Assembly: GCA_947626285.1 (NCBI GenBank)
Contig: CANQRR010000012.1
Span: 1 to 64,000, forward strand
Length of the DNA: 64,000 nt
Source: an uncultured Lachnospiraceae bacterium
GTDB taxonomy: Bacteria; Bacillota; Clostridia; Lachnospirales; Lachnospiraceae
Direction of reading: 5' to 3'
Below the pieces are notes generated by a model. That model was given only the letters and a program-made list of their open reading frames with translations, was not told the origin of the DNA and made no database searches. The position numbers and the translations under genes were made by a program. Below, piece by piece: positions 2,520-39,540 of this stretch; the first letter of the stretch is position 1, and each line of letters begins with the position of its first letter.

Positions 2520-3647
2520 TTAATGCCGCATTCTTGTGAGCTTATACCACATAAATGAAAAGAATGGAAAGTAATCTTTCCGTCCCCGATAAAGCTTCGC
2601 GTTCACATTTTTGTATTGTTTCATCCATTCCTTATGGCTGAGCATGCCTGTTTTAACCCTTACATCATAATCAAAGCATTCTGCCATCGTTGTAAAACCA
2701 TCCGGAATTTTCTTGTAACAGTCTTCCGGAATTTTACCCTGTAACATGGCTTCACACCATAGGGTCACATCAGGCATTCCCGCAACCGTAGTAGACCACC
2801 CATTTACAGTGTTTCGAAAATTGATTTCAAGGAAATACAGCTTTCCATCTTCACTGACCATAAATTCAAACTCAAAGATTCCCTCAAAACCGATTTCTGA
2901 TATCATTGCGGAGGCTTTCCGGATAAACTCCCGATCTTCAACATTTTTGTTAACCCAAAATGGGGCGTATTTATCCGGAATATGGTAAACCTCATTATTT
3001 TGCATACTAAAAAATACATCCTGTCCGTGTTTCACACTGAATCCTTCATATGACTGCTCATCCGTCTTTTGGATATATTCCTGTAGCAAAATTGATGCAC
3101 TATGGATATTCTTATAAGCCTCTCTTAATTCTTCTTCATTGTTACAGACAAACACTATATTTTTCCATTCCAGTCCAAAGGAATTGATCGCTTTTGTGAT
3201 CACCGGATACTTAATGTCATTTGGGATTTCTCCCGTTTGAACCTTCCATGTCCTTGGAATTGAAAAGCCATGTTTGACCGCCAGAGCACAAATCTCATCT
3301 TTATTCATATATTTCCTGATATTCCCCGCTGCCCCAGCATTATAAAATATAAAGTAATCTTTCAGCTCATCATAATGCTTGTCCAGCGTCATGACCGTCA
3401 CGTCATCACCTGTCAGGATGAAAGATTTTTCCCCATTTTTTCGAGCAAACTTTGATAATATCAGTTCTATCCCTGCTTCCGGATTATCAACATAGTACTT
3501 TTCTTTTACATACCTGCTTCTGCCTACCAGGCGCGGCTCACTTTTTACAACCACAACAATCGGTCGAATTCCAGCTTCCCCCAACGTTCGAACAATCCCT
3601 AACGGATTGTAATGATCTTTGCTCACAAAAACTATATATTTACGCAT
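2520..3647 (-). CDS. ATP-grasp domain protein (carboxylate-amine ligase-like)
   Basis: 375 aa; MRKYIVFVSKDHYNPLGIVRTLGEAG... with ATP-grasp features (LLQEYI, FEFEFMVSEDGKLYFLEINFRN). Confidence 0.8.
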   Translation of the reverse strand: MRKYIVFVSKDHYNPLGIVRTLGEAGIRPIVVVVKSEPRLVGRSRYVKEKYYVDNPEAGIELILSKFARKNGEKSFILTGDDVTVMTLDKHYDELKDYFIFYNAGAAGNIRKYMNKDEICALAVKHGFSIPRTWKVQTGEIPNDIKYPVITKAINSFGLEWKNIVFVCNNEEELREAYKNIHSASILLQEYIQKTDEQSYEGFSVKHGQDVFFSMQNNEVYHIPDKYAPFWVNKNVEDREFIRKASAMISEIGFEGIFEFEFMVSEDGKLYFLEINFRNTVNGWSTTVAGMPDVTLWCEAMLQGKIPEDCYKKIPDGFTTMAECFDYDVRVKTGMLSHKEWMKQYKNVNAKLYRGRKDYFPFFSFMWYKLTRMRH

Positions 3648-3678: not shown

Positions 3679-4329
3679 TTATCTTGTTTCCCACTCCCTT
3701 ATGACTGCTTCAGGAATGTCTATTGTCTCCCTGTACCTATTAAGATGTGGGCGGTCATCCGCGCCATAATCCGTTTTCAGCCTGTCTGATAATATTTTAA
3801 ACGTAGACAAAACCACTCTGACATCCATAAGGAATGTCACATGCTCCGCATAATAGATCTCATACTTAAACTGGGTCTCCCAGTCACATGTGGCTGTCCC
3901 GCCCACCCCGTCAGGCGGGATCAGCCCTCCACGGACCTGGTGGCGTTTTCTTTCTTCCGGGTAGAAATACGGTCCATAATAAGTCGGAAGCGGACGCGGC
4001 CCCACAAAGGACATATCCCCTTTTAGAATGGAGAAAAGTTCAGGAAGTTCGTCTAAAGAAGAGGATCTCAATAAAATGCCAAACTTCGTAAGACGGTCCT
4101 TCTCCGGTAATAAATTCCCGTTCTCGTCTTTTGCGTCTGTCATCGACCTGAATTTATAAAGCGTAAATGCTTTTTCATCTTTACCAATTCTCCGCTGGCT
4201 GAACAGTATAGGGGAGCCCATGTTCCAAAAAACGCAGATGCCAAGTACGACATACACCGGAAGCAGAACCAAAATCGCAACCAGGGATATCACGATGTCA
4301 AACAGCCGCTTTATATATTTCCGGTACAT
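3679..4329 (-). CDS. Polyprenyl-phosphate sugar-1-phosphate transferase (PglC/WcaJ-type catalytic domain)
   Basis: LFDIVISLVAILVLLPVYVVLG, QRRIGKDEKAFTLYKFRSM, LDELPELFSILKGDMSFVGPRPL. Confidence 0.93.
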   Translation of the reverse strand: MYRKYIKRLFDIVISLVAILVLLPVYVVLGICVFWNMGSPILFSQRRIGKDEKAFTLYKFRSMTDAKDENGNLLPEKDRLTKFGILLRSSSLDELPELFSILKGDMSFVGPRPLPTYYGPYFYPEERKRHQVRGGLIPPDGVGGTATCDWETQFKYEIYYAEHVTFLMDVRVVLSTFKILSDRLKTDYGADDRPHLNRYRETIDIPEAVIREWETR

Positions 4330-4354: not shown

Positions 4355-5026
4355 CTATAACGCGCTGAACACACACTCAAATGCTTCCGCGTAATCGCAG
4401 CCGGCTTCTGCCCCTCGGTAGGCCGCAAGACCGGTGATTGCTTCCTCGGAGCGCGGATGCGGGTATTTACGCATAACGCCTGTATACGCGGCCAGGGCGT
4501 TAAGTTTTATATCCAGGCCCCTTTTCCCGATCTCCACAAAATAGTTTGGCAGGAAACGGTTTGCTGAGGAATTCAAGGACCACTCCGTACTCGATGGGAC
4601 CTCCATATACATCAAAAGTTTCAAGGCCGGAACGCCTTCCTTCCGCTGGAACAATCTGGAGGCTGCCTGGGCTGCCCTGCTTGTTTCCTGATGGTCTATG
4701 TTCGTATCGGAAGGATGATGGGTAACGATCCCTTCCGCCTGCCATTCCTCTATGCAGGATTCAATGAATCTCACCAGATCCAGGTGCGGGACCGTGTTCA
4801 TTTTGATATTTGGGAAATCCGCATGATATACCTTAGCGATCCCCAGCAGGGACATCGCTTTCGCCTCATCTTCCTGCAAAGTCGCCGAGAGATTTTGCCT
4901 GGCTGCCGCATGTCCACTCATGACGGCAATCGCCACCTTGTGTCCCTGTTCAATGAGCTTGCGTATGGTCGCACCGGCCCCTAAAACTTCGTCATCCGGA
5001 TGCGCTACTACTATCAGATAATTCAT
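4355..5026 (-). CDS. PIG-L family (LmbE-like) deacetylase
   Basis: MNYLIVVAHPDDEVLGAGATIRKL: PIG-L AHPDDE motif. RBS AAAGGAA before ATG at 5026. Confidence 0.93.
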   Translation of the reverse strand: MNYLIVVAHPDDEVLGAGATIRKLIEQGHKVAIAVMSGHAAARQNLSATLQEDEAKAMSLLGIAKVYHADFPNIKMNTVPHLDLVRFIESCIEEWQAEGIVTHHPSDTNIDHQETSRAAQAASRLFQRKEGVPALKLLMYMEVPSSTEWSLNSSANRFLPNYFVEIGKRGLDIKLNALAAYTGVMRKYPHPRSEEAITGLAAYRGAEAGCDYAEAFECVFSAL

Positions 5027-5097
5027 AGCCAGATTCCTTTCAATCAATTAGAAGCCCCAAAATGTCAGCCTTTCTTTTTGAAATGAATTTTCCCACT

Positions 5098-5790
5098 CTA
5101 CGCCGACGCATAGCCTCTCTGCACTTTGTTCTCCTGCGGGACCACCGCCACATGCCTCAGGACCCGGTACACATTCTTCCCGGTCTCGTCCTTCGTGATC
5201 TCCAGCACGCCGTAGTGCCCTGTCCCCGGCGGCGGTGCGATGACTGCTTTCCCGTGATAGAGCATCTCCACGTCCACATCATCCTTCACCAGTATCCCCA
5301 GCGGCAGCACCGTGTCCTCGCCCCAGAGTTCCCTGCGGACTTTGGCGAAACGACTGGCGAAACGGACCCTCTCGACACCGTCCAGAAGGTATTCCAGGGG
5401 ACCGTAGACCCGGTAACTGTCCCCCTCCGCCGTCTCACGGATCATGTAGGAGACCGGCACGGTATGGTCCTTCCCTGAGATCACCTCAAGGAGCTGCGCA
5501 TCCTGCTCCGGCAGCGGGAACATGCTCAGGTAGCCTGTCGAGATCAGTTTCCATATGGCCGGGATCTTCTCCAACCGCCGAAAAAGCGGCTCCGTGTCCC
5601 TGCAGGTCAGGAAGACGCAACCGGGAAACAAAACCTCCGGTTCGATCCGGTTCAGCTGCTGTTTCCGCAGGTTCCGCTCGTTATAGATGACGAAAACGTC
5701 ATCATACAGAAAAGGCGGAACAGTGCGCCGTATCTCCTTCACCAGCGCTTCCTCTCCGCCATACCATGTCTTCAGTTTGTACCAGAGCAT
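5098..5790 (-). CDS. loaP: NusG-paralog antiterminator, LoaP-like
   Basis: MLWYKLKTWYGGEEALVKEIRR...FPGCVFLTC...(NGN) plus C-terminal KOW-like part. RBS GGAAGGAGG before ATG 5790. First gene of a leftward sugar/biosynthetic operon. A standard nusG is separately present at 26904. Confidence 0.75.
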   Translation of the reverse strand: MLWYKLKTWYGGEEALVKEIRRTVPPFLYDDVFVIYNERNLRKQQLNRIEPEVLFPGCVFLTCRDTEPLFRRLEKIPAIWKLISTGYLSMFPLPEQDAQLLEVISGKDHTVPVSYMIRETAEGDSYRVYGPLEYLLDGVERVRFASRFAKVRRELWGEDTVLPLGILVKDDVDVEMLYHGKAVIAPPPGTGHYGVLEITKDETGKNVYRVLRHVAVVPQENKVQRGYASA

Positions 5791-5980: not shown

Positions 5981-6018
5981 ATATGCCGGAGCGTTACATA
6001 AAAACTTGTCCGGCATAT
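5981..6018 (-). promoter_or_regulatory. Leader-RNA hairpin upstream of loaP
   Basis: Perfect 10-bp inverted repeat ATATGCCGGA (5981-5990) / TCCGGCATAT (6009-6018) with an 18-nt loop. Confidence 0.5.
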
Positions 6019-6135
6019 GCGGTGGCCGCTATGACCCCTTTCCGAAAAACGTCGCCTCTGGGCTCACGTATCCCATCCAGGTTTTCATCTGATAAAACAA
6101 TCGTCCGGCTGTCAGGAAATACTGATGATAGAGTG

Positions 6136-6365
6136 TGTCGTAGAGTTGGATACTCTACGACATTCTTCATTTAAATACATGGCCGCAAACCTACATAAAT
6201 ACGTACTTCTATATGAAAAATGGATTCGTGAACCCGGCGTTTTCTACAAAGTATAAGGAGATGTTTTTCGGCGAATAATATTGACAAAATGCGCATTCTT
6301 TTGTACAATGCCTATGATAAATGTTTCGGCAATAAGAATGTCGTAGAGTATCCAACTCTACGACA
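6136..6365. repeat. Candidate invertible promoter segment with 32-bp perfect inverted repeats
   Basis: TGTCGTAGAGTTGGATACTCTACGACATTCTT at 6136-6167; its exact reverse complement at 6334-6365. Each copy has 10-bp palindromic arms GTCGTAGAGT/ACTCTACGAC around asymmetric core TGGAT. Confidence 0.8.
6281..6309 (+). promoter_or_regulatory. Sigma-A promoter inside the inverted-repeat segment, pointing right
   Basis: TTGACA (6281-6286), 17-bp spacer, TACAAT (6304-6309). Confidence 0.75.
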
Positions 6366-6391
6366 TTTTGCGTTTCCGTGTGCCTTTGTGC

Positions 6392-6419
6392 TTGACTTTG
6401 TTTCCCAATATTATATAAT
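6392..6419 (+). promoter_or_regulatory. Fixed sigma-A promoter outside the inverted-repeat segment
   Basis: TTGACT (6392-6397), 16-bp spacer, TATAAT (6414-6419), ahead of the SGNH gene. Confidence 0.65.
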
Positions 6420-6476
6420 ATTATTTTATGGTGATTTAGATAGAATGAATCGGATTCACAGGAGATAATGCCAACC

Positions 6477-7529
6477 ATGAAACCACAAAAGCGCAGACGC
6501 AAAAGAAGGCGGGACAGACTCGTCCTGAACCTTTTGATCCTAGTCACTCTGGTGCTTGTCGTCTTCGAGGGGAAACTGATCTACACGATGTTCACTCATC
6601 GTTCCTCTTTGACGGAAGCGCGTGCCACGAATTCTTCCGGCACGGCGGTCTCGTCCGGCGGTTCGGTCGTGGAGTCTGAGCCGGAGCGCCGTCAGCCCGC
6701 GGTCTCTCTTCCGGAAGTCACGGACGGCGCGTACGGAGAGATGGTGCTTGCCGGCCTTCCGGAGAAGCTGAGCGCGACGGTTCGCGAGACGGAGCCTGAG
6801 ACATTGCCTACCGTTTCGGATCCGGACAGCCCGGCGATCGTCCCGAAGTCGGATACTTCCGTCGACGATTCCTATTTCGCGGATGCCGTGTTCATCGGCG
6901 ATTCCCGGATGGAGGGCTTCCGCAATGCATCCGGCATCACACAGGGGCGCTTCTTCACGAGCGTGGGCATGTCCCTCTCTTCGATGAAGAGCGATCCGGT
7001 TATTTCTACTCCGGATGGCAATATCACGGTTGCCGCCGCGCTCTCTGGCGGCAGTTACCGCAAAATCTACATCATGCTCGGCACCAACGATCTGGGCGAG
7101 TACAACTGGGATTCATTCCGGGAAGGGTTTATCGCGACTATGGACCGCTTTCGGGAGATCCAGCCGGATGCGATCATCTACGTGTGCAGTGTGATCTATG
7201 TAGACGAGTCGCGCGCGGCCTCCACAGAATATGTCAACAACGCAAACGTCGACAAGATCAATTCGATCCTGCTGGACATCTGTGAGGAAGAAGACTACTA
7301 CTATCTTGACCTCAACGAGATCCTGTCCAACGGCTACGGTTCGCTGATCGACGGGGCTTCCAGCGACGGGGTCCATCTGTACGCGGAATATTGCGAGCAG
7401 ATGCTCAACTACCTGAAGAGCCATTACATAGAGGTGCCGGAGTCCGACGAACCGGAAAGCGGTGGTGTGACTGCCGCCGAGACGGAGTCCGAATCAGAGA
7501 CAGACGGCGCGGGCGGCAGCGAAGCATGA
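6477..7529 (+). CDS. SGNH/GDSL hydrolase family membrane-anchored protein
   Basis: N-terminal TM segment after a KR-rich stretch; FIGDSRMEGF, MLGTNDLG, DGVHLYAEY blocks. RBS AGGAGA fits ATG 6477 better than ATG 6468. Confidence 0.8.
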   Translation: MKPQKRRRKRRRDRLVLNLLILVTLVLVVFEGKLIYTMFTHRSSLTEARATNSSGTAVSSGGSVVESEPERRQPAVSLPEVTDGAYGEMVLAGLPEKLSATVRETEPETLPTVSDPDSPAIVPKSDTSVDDSYFADAVFIGDSRMEGFRNASGITQGRFFTSVGMSLSSMKSDPVISTPDGNITVAAALSGGSYRKIYIMLGTNDLGEYNWDSFREGFIATMDRFREIQPDAIIYVCSVIYVDESRAASTEYVNNANVDKINSILLDICEEEDYYYLDLNEILSNGYGSLIDGASSDGVHLYAEYCEQMLNYLKSHYIEVPESDEPESGGVTAAETESESETDGAGGSEA

Positions 7530-37221: not shown

Positions 37222-39540
37222 AACTGCGAGCGCCACCTCAAGCACCTCCGGCATCGTCCTGACATACACCAGCTCCATGCCCTCCGTGACTTCCTTGTCG
37301 ATCTCCGCGATGTCCGCGCGGTTCTCCTCCGGCACGATCACAGTCGTGATCCCGGCCTGCTTCGCCGCAAGCAGCTTCTCCTTGAGGCCGCCGATCGCCA
37401 GCACCCTGCCGCGCAGCGTGATCTCCCCGGTCATCGCGACATCGGCGCGCACCGGAATCTGCACGACCGCAGACAGAATGGCAGTCGCCATCGTGATGCC
37501 CGCGGAAGGGCCGTCCTTCGGAACCGCGCCCTCCGGAATATGAACGTGTATATCATTCTTCGCAAAGAACTCCGCGTCTATGTCATACTGCTCTCCCAGC
37601 GAACGGACGTAGCTGACCGCCGCCTGCGCTGATTCCTTCATCACGTCGCCAAGCTGCCCGGTCAATACAAGCTCGCCCTTGCCGGGCATCGTGTTCACCT
37701 CGATCTCAAGCGTGTCGCCGCCGACGCTGGTCCACGCGAGGCCGCGCACGATCCCAATCTCGTTCTGCGCGTTTTTCTTCTGATACGTATAGCGCTTCCG
37801 GCCCAGATATTTCTCCAGATTCTTCCCGGACACGCGCACGCTCTTCGATCCGTCCTCAAGGATCTCCCGCGCCGCTTTCCGGCAGATCTGTCCGATCCTG
37901 CGCTCCAGCTGCCGCACGCCGGCCTCCTTTGTGTAGCCGCTGATGATCCCCTCAAGCGCCGGCTTCGTGATCTCAAGCTGGCTCTTCTTCAGTCCATTTC
38001 GCTCGATCTGTTTTTTCAGAAGATGTCTTTTCGCAATGTGAAGCTTCTCATTCGCCGTGTAGCCGCTGATCTCGATCACTTCCATGCGGTCAAGCAGCGG
38101 GCGCGGGATCGTCTGTGTGTCGTTGGCCGTCGCGATAAACAGCACCTCGGACAGATCGATCGGGAGCTCCACGTAATGATCGCGGAACTTGCAGTTCTGC
38201 TCGGAGTCAAATACCTCCAGCAGCGCCGCGGAAGTGTCTCCCCTGTAATCGCTGCTGACTTTGTCCACTTCGTCGATCAGCATCAGCGGATTCTTCACGC
38301 CCGCCTGCCGCATACCGGCCGCGATACGCCCCGGCATCGCCCCGACGTAGGTCCTTCTGTGCCCGCGGATCTCCGCCTCGTCCCGCACGCCGCCCAGGCT
38401 GATGCGGACGTATTTCTTGTCCAACGCACGCGCGATGGAACGCGCGACCGACGTCTTGCCTGTGCCGGGCGGTCCGACCAGACAGAGGATCGGGCTGTCG
38501 CCCTTCTTCGTGAGGCTCCGGACCGCAAGGAACTCCAGCACGCGCTCTTTCACCTTCTCAAGCCCGTAGTGGTCCTCGTCAAGGATCTTCGCGGCGCGCT
38601 TCAGATCGTGGCTGTCCTCCGACACCTTATCCCACGGCAGCTCCAGCAGAGTCTCGATGTAATTGCGCTGCACCGCGCTCTCGGCTGAACTTCCGCCAAG
38701 TCCTCTCAGGCGCTGCACTTCCTTGTGGATCTTCTCCTTGACCTCATCGGACGCGCAGAGCTGCTCTGCCTGCTCGTCGTATCCGTTCGCGTCTGAGAGC
38801 TGCGTGTCCTCCCCAAGCTCCTCCTGGATCAGCTTGGCCTGCTCGCGCAGGACATACTCCCTCTGGTTCTTGTCCACGCGCTCCCGGACCTTCTGCTGGA
38901 TCTCTCCCTGGATCTGGATGACTTCCATCTCCCGGACCAGCATCGTGCAGAGCCGCTCATAGCGCTCCACCATGTCCTCCGCCTCCAGAAGCGCCTGCCG
39001 CTGTTCGCAGCGCAGCGGCAGATGCACGCACGCCGCCATCGTCAGCTTTTCAAAATCGCCAAGCTCCAGAAGCTGGCGAAGCATCTCCTTGCCGAATTTC
39101 TGGTTGAGCTGACTGTAGCGCTTCAGAAGCTCCTCAAGTCCCCGCGTCATCGCCAGCCTGGTGATCTCGTCATATTCAACCTCCCGCTCGCGTGCGAAAT
39201 CCACGCTCGCGTGCAGGTAGCCATCGTAATCTTCCACACCGATCAGCCTGCCGCGCTCGACGCCTTCCACCATCACGCGCACAATGTTTTTTGGCAGCTT
39301 CGCCACGTTCCGGATCCGCGCCGAAACGCCAAAGTTGTATAAATTTCGCAAACCCGGATTGTTGTCATCCGGGTTTTGCTGCGTCACCAAAAATATCATC
39401 TGATCTTCCGCCATCGCGGCCTCGACCGCCTTGATGGACTTGTCTCTGCTGATATCAAAATGTAATACCATCGTCGGCAGAACCGTCAGTCCCCGCATCG
39501 GTATCACCGGTATTGTCCTTTTCATTTTGTTCTCATTCAC
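37213..39540 (-). CDS. lon: ATP-dependent protease Lon
   Basis: [67 protein letters not shown]. Confidence 0.98.

Follow-up and report, generated by a model that had tools for sequence, protein, structure and literature searches.

The stretch of Lachnospiraceae DNA analysed here (64,000 nt, hereafter the window) carries two 32-bp inverted repeats, at 6136 to 6167 (+ strand) and 6334 to 6365 (- strand), which enclose a 166-bp segment (6168 to 6333) without a recombinase gene inside. A repeat search of the window found the arms to be 100% complementary over 32 nt with 166 nt between them, and by our own arithmetic two perfectly matching 32-mers no more than 500 bp apart would arise by chance about 1e-12 times in 64 kb. 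Each repeat copy contains a putative recombination site of 11-5-11 palindromic design: TGTCGTAGAGT, the core TGGAT (6147 to 6151) and ACTCTACGACA at 6136 to 6162, and the inverse, with the core ATCCA at 6350 to 6354, at 6339 to 6365. Inside the segment a sigma-A-type promoter, TTGACA-17-TACAAT (6281 to 6309, + strand; 11 of 12 consensus matches), now reads away from the loaP-like gene described below (OFF), and a promoter scan found no left-reading promoter of comparable quality within the segment. A fixed promoter-like site, TTGACT-16-TATAAT (6392 to 6419, +), precedes the OFF-side neighbour, an SGNH/GDSL hydrolase gene (6468 to 7529, +). The original prediction, made from the bare sequence, had described the perfect repeat around 166 bp, its palindromic copies with the asymmetric core TGGAT, the rightward promoter without a leftward equal and a separate fixed promoter for the SGNH gene; the repeat search and the promoter scan recovered all of these. 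The window switch satisfies one criterion of an inverton, namely inverted repeats around a segment with an outward promoter.

To the left, all on the - strand, lie a gene for a LoaP-like NusG paralog of 230 aa identified by profile search (5098 to 5790), a PIG-L family deacetylase (4355 to 5047), a bacterial sugar transferase of the initiating glycosylphosphotransferase family (3679 to 4329), an ATP-grasp protein (2520 to 3647), a gene of the sodium:solute symporter family, interrupted by a frameshift in the assembly (802 to 2398), and an open frame truncated at the contig end (3 to 752), which by eye, without a profile search, resembles a PLP-dependent decarboxylase. The predicted arrangement, a loaP-led glycan operon on the left and the SGNH gene on the right, was thus borne out by profile searches. 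The symporter gene consists of two overlapping frames, while its paralog on contig C117 is intact (530 aa); the split may be a frameshift or an assembly error. As the NusG paralog scored 54.3 bits, below the curated NCBIfam LoaP cut-off of 125 bits, we regard it as divergent and call it LoaP-like only. It matched the NusG profile with E = 2.8e-8 and satisfies the sequence and fold criterion of the NusG family. NusG also ranks first for its AlphaFold model, a poor one that counts as weak support only, given a mean pLDDT of 51.

Between the switch and loaP we found a conserved structured leader RNA (65 nt; 6022 to 6085, -). Across an alignment of 17 loci it is conserved in the leader strand and has a predicted two-hairpin fold, with compensating changes in 4 of 16 pairs and a small covariation term; no UNCG tetraloop of the dfn type, the hairpin through which LoaP acts, was identified in this predicted fold. 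Rfam had no match for the leader; on the repeats its hits were spurious ones to miRNA hairpins, and in eleven related loci a tRNA was all that reached gathering level. A model of the leader detected 3 loci above noise in the same genome, all of them switch-linked, plus a weak match upstream of a diverged loaP on contig C20 (18.6 bits, E 0.53), and the leader was found in 3 of 250 genomes of the family. At the switches it precedes loaP. Neither this leader nor the T-run asymmetry described below was part of the original prediction. A second leader hairpin, ATATGCCGGA...TCCGGCATAT followed by TTTC (5981 to 6018, -; fold z = -3.1), has a function that can only be inferred; it may be the target of antitermination. 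LoaP-like proteins may recognise their operons by the leader RNA, which offers a concrete candidate mechanism.

The original prediction had proposed a search of the genome for further copies of the site, and such copies were present on three other contigs. The same 11-bp arms occur at 3 complete loci, namely the window, C11 (sites at 38353-38379 and 38557-38583) and C95 (535-559 and 795-819, one site with an altered arm), and at 1 contig-cut locus, C47, with a single site at the cut contig end; as a control, the reversed pattern was matched 0 times per strand for the 27-bp site and, in its looser form, 2 times per strand. A loaP-like gene adjoins the switch at C11 and C95 too, the one at C11 being 95% identical to that of the window; C95 begins within its loaP, the remainder of which appears to be on C117. 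The loaP-side flanks of C11 and the window are 94% identical, and their segments are 76.0% identical with one of them inverted and 57.5% otherwise. The orientation of the segment relative to loaP puts C11 in the ON state and the window switch, like C95, in the OFF state. Opposite orientations were therefore seen between paralogous loci of one genome, not within one locus; the OFF state predicted for this assembly stands, with paralogous switches occurring in both orientations. C47 is the ortholog of a locus in the wider survey, L026, which is OFF, and L040, an ortholog in another species, has the same orientation as the window, a point against the invertible reading.

An exact-pattern scan of a genome-contig database yielded 32 loci, mostly in Lachnospiraceae MAGs of the Lapin series. 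Allowing up to 3 mismatches, the pair search among fetched loci detected inverted pairs with a matching 5-bp core at 23 of them (C11 and C95 included), which makes 24 with the window; one further pair lies at G114:C21. The 11-bp arms are conserved across the site family, while the core is identical within a pair and varies between loci, so that all 24 listed cores differ from one another. A tyrosine-recombinase crossover region demands equal cores within a pair and different ones between loci; this pattern is the signature of such a region. Nearly every pair, in the window and the related loci alike, also holds a TTGACA-17-TAnnnT promoter, 29-37 bp from one repeat and pointing outward. The window switch is one of a family of putative switches in related bacteria. 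Two Clostridia loci whose sites have unmatched cores (L031 and L044) and a Gammaproteobacteria MAG with only one site (L032) were excluded, being either unrelated or fortuitous matches; no site was found in viral contigs.

Most switches face the leader, beyond which come one or two loaP-like genes and, where the sequence reaches, polysaccharide genes encoding glycosyltransferases, a nucleotidyltransferase, a CDP-glycerol glycerophosphotransferase or a sugar transferase. Tandem loaP-like genes were seen at L029, L030, L034, L035, L048 and L053; in these pairs the switch-proximal gene is ~34-39% and the second ~63-70% identical to the loaP-like gene of the window. Five other loci (L041, L036, L055, L051 and L038) carry the same site family; for three of them (L041, L051 and L038) no loaP leader was found, and these form a second target class near large surface-protein genes, as read by eye from the translations. 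Within the loaP class 4 switches are ON (C11, L024, L043 and L042) and the others OFF. The 4 ON loci all lie in different genomes, and we considered one ON switch per genome as a sign of mutual exclusion; this pattern is 54% likely by chance, and is therefore no evidence for it.

Eleven of the pairs enclose a tyrosine recombinase gene (345-428 aa), and their segments measure 1.2-1.4 kb. It is with these copies that the segment might be taken for a non-autonomous MITE with terminal inverted repeats, the recombinase-bearing copies being its autonomous parents. Dispersal of the copies, some with and some without the gene, would fit; nevertheless they share one and the same functional position, in most cases ahead of a loaP leader or close to the gene of a large surface protein, their core varies between loci yet matches within each, and each end is built as a site with two arms, which simple terminal repeats are not, all of which leaves this reading hardly tenable. 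The invertible promoter of the original prediction survives, given the cores, equal in the two sites of a pair and different from locus to locus, and the recombinase genes inside the repeats of relatives.

The closest solved relative is Tn1549 Int, with a homologous catalytic domain; the catalytic residues were checked by eye on the alignment of the C61 protein. Tn1549 Int acts on sites in which 11-bp arms flank a crossover region of 5-7 bp (PMC5871717), and this Tn916/Tn1549 geometry is met by the site family of the window. The genome to which the window belongs encodes two members of this recombinase clade, on C61 and C80, which cluster with the recombinases inside the pairs and separately from its other integrases; they are 41-42% identical to the recombinases inside GTCGTAGAGT sites, and none closer than about 42% to the latter was found in this genome. 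The C80 recombinase sits within its own 25-bp repeat, TTCGCAGAGT-CGGGC-ACTCTGCGAA, with slightly different sites, and no sites were seen near the C61 recombinase. Contigs C80 (L072:68-1611, G000:C80) and C59 (L088:69-541, G000:C59) share their first 67 bp, after which comes a TTCGCAGAGT-type site; between its sites C80 has the recombinase gene and C59 an apparent decayed remnant. Serine recombinases exist in this genome as well, none of them on site-bearing contigs. A search for recombinase genes of either type had been part of the proposal, and it points to the tyrosine type, with C61 and C80 as finds; the idea of a recombinase acting from elsewhere is supported, the segment having no such gene and two clade members being encoded elsewhere in the genome. 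Among other genomes, G269 has sites, recombinase and loaP-like gene, and G114 has sites, recombinase and leader-linked loaP-like genes; in G152, the only other member of the genus searched, there were no sites, no recombinase at E 1e-40 and no loaP-like gene, a joint absence in favour of the invertible promoter.

Without a close recombinase in the assembly, the switch could also be one that was formerly active and is now locked OFF here after loss of its recombinase, and the frameshifted symporter gene of the operon and the changed arm of one C95 site would be in keeping with such decay. We consider this improbable: both window sites are perfect and have retained their core, the genome has two recombinases of the right clade at other places, and the assembly, 97.6% complete, breaks at the fourth switch, so that the recombinase may simply be missing from it. 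The window segment can probably be flipped, aiming the promoter at or away from the loaP-like glycan cluster, although flipping in a population remains unseen.

Each copy of the repeat also folds strongly as an RNA hairpin. That of the right repeat (6337 to 6369, +; -17.8 kcal/mol), which is followed by a short T-run, is a possible terminator for the parked promoter. When the eight bases outside the repeat were compared at 18 loci, the loaP side had 0-3 T (one locus 5) and the other side 4-6 T (one locus 2), an asymmetry with a Wilcoxon p = 2.6e-4, although related loci among the 18 are not independent. As the right-hand tail in the window has four T only and was not flagged by a terminator scan with a 5-T threshold, termination there is inferred; the OFF-side hairpin and T-run may also work as a terminator. 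Strong hairpins and OFF-side T-runs are equally what one would see if the repeats were only terminators or attenuator hairpins around a segment that never inverts. Such hairpins, however, need not have locus-specific cores equal in two copies 180-1430 bp apart, need not enclose tyrosine recombinase genes and need not have between them a segment that occurs either way round within nearly identical flanks, and we regard a purely terminating role as very improbable.

The sites, the promoter, the leader, the paralogs in opposite orientation and the recombinases inside the repeats of relatives were all observed, and we hold it highly likely that the locus is an invertible promoter gating a LoaP-like glycan operon, with the recombinase supplied in trans. 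The acting enzyme is inferred to be a Tn916/Tn1549-type tyrosine recombinase from elsewhere in the genome, which would pair the two 27-bp sites and exchange strands across the core TGGAT, whereupon the segment would flip. In the current orientation the promoter would fire right through the right repeat, where transcription may stop at the hairpin and T-run (OFF); following the inferred inversion it would fire left through the other repeat, which has no T-run, and on into the leader, then the loaP-like gene and the glycan operon. There the LoaP-like protein, whose binding to the leader is likewise inferred, presumably keeps RNA polymerase going through the operon.

Several dispersed invertible promoters, each gating a glycan operon led by a NusG paralog, are likewise found in the Bacteroides Mpi/UpxY system. 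That system belongs to another phylum and uses other sites. Its invertase Mpi is a serine recombinase, unlike the enzymes inside the related sites, which are of the tyrosine type; the switch described here has a LoaP-like NusG paralog with a leader RNA of its own, and its recombinase is inferred to be of the tyrosine type. The best reading is that of phase-variable glycan operons under LoaP control, analogous to the Bacteroides system and not homologous with it. Phase variation of capsules governed by an antiterminator has been described in Bacteroidota; the same logic would here be built from other parts in Lachnospiraceae, which points to the combination of inversion switch and NusG paralog as a solution that recurs. 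In one survey, UpxY genes adjoin invertons in Bacteroidota, with enrichment near Bacteroidota-dominated groups, and a Clostridia inverton group (139) is linked to tyrosine recombinase group 35, has some segments of ~200 bp and a nearby tyrosine recombinase/integrase, and shifts orientation in culture (PMC11892184). Group 139 resembles the window switch in its Clostridia hosts, segment size and tyrosine recombinase; identity of the sites is untested, and LoaP goes unmentioned in that paper. In Eggerthella lenta, inversions of 1.9-2.0 Mb between 16-bp repeats reposition whole loaP/capsule clusters, and no recombinase gene was found adjoining the breakpoints (PMC13174815, preprint); this Gram-positive gut bacterium likewise combines DNA inversion with loaP and capsule clusters, but without a small promoter segment. 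The Tn916/Tn1549 family, matched in catalytic domain and site geometry, performs transposition, in contrast to the promoter inversion with fixed sites inferred here. In the literature searched we found no description of loaP-like operons with a conserved leader RNA being gated by small promoter invertons, and no related paper among the matches listed for the arm sequence.

More tentatively, and with considerable doubt, one might propose a Lachnospiraceae counterpart of capsule switching in Bacteroides, namely that a single tyrosine recombinase serves several LoaP-gated loci, that the 5-bp cores bar cross-locus recombination, that one operon is ON at a time and that different genera plugged unrelated inversion systems before the same leader module. 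Cores matched within and distinct between loci offer a ready test of how one recombinase could serve many loci without scrambling the genome. In other genera, at G111 and G114:C13, the leader precedes tandem loaP-like genes behind inverted repeats unrelated to those of the window (32 bp around 193 bp and 22 bp around 190 bp) with weaker promoter-like sites inside, which suggests that inversion switches of different origin were placed ahead of one leader-loaP module. The LoaP-leader modules behind these inverton-like repeats are L106 and L107 (G111:C7) and L105 (G114:C13).
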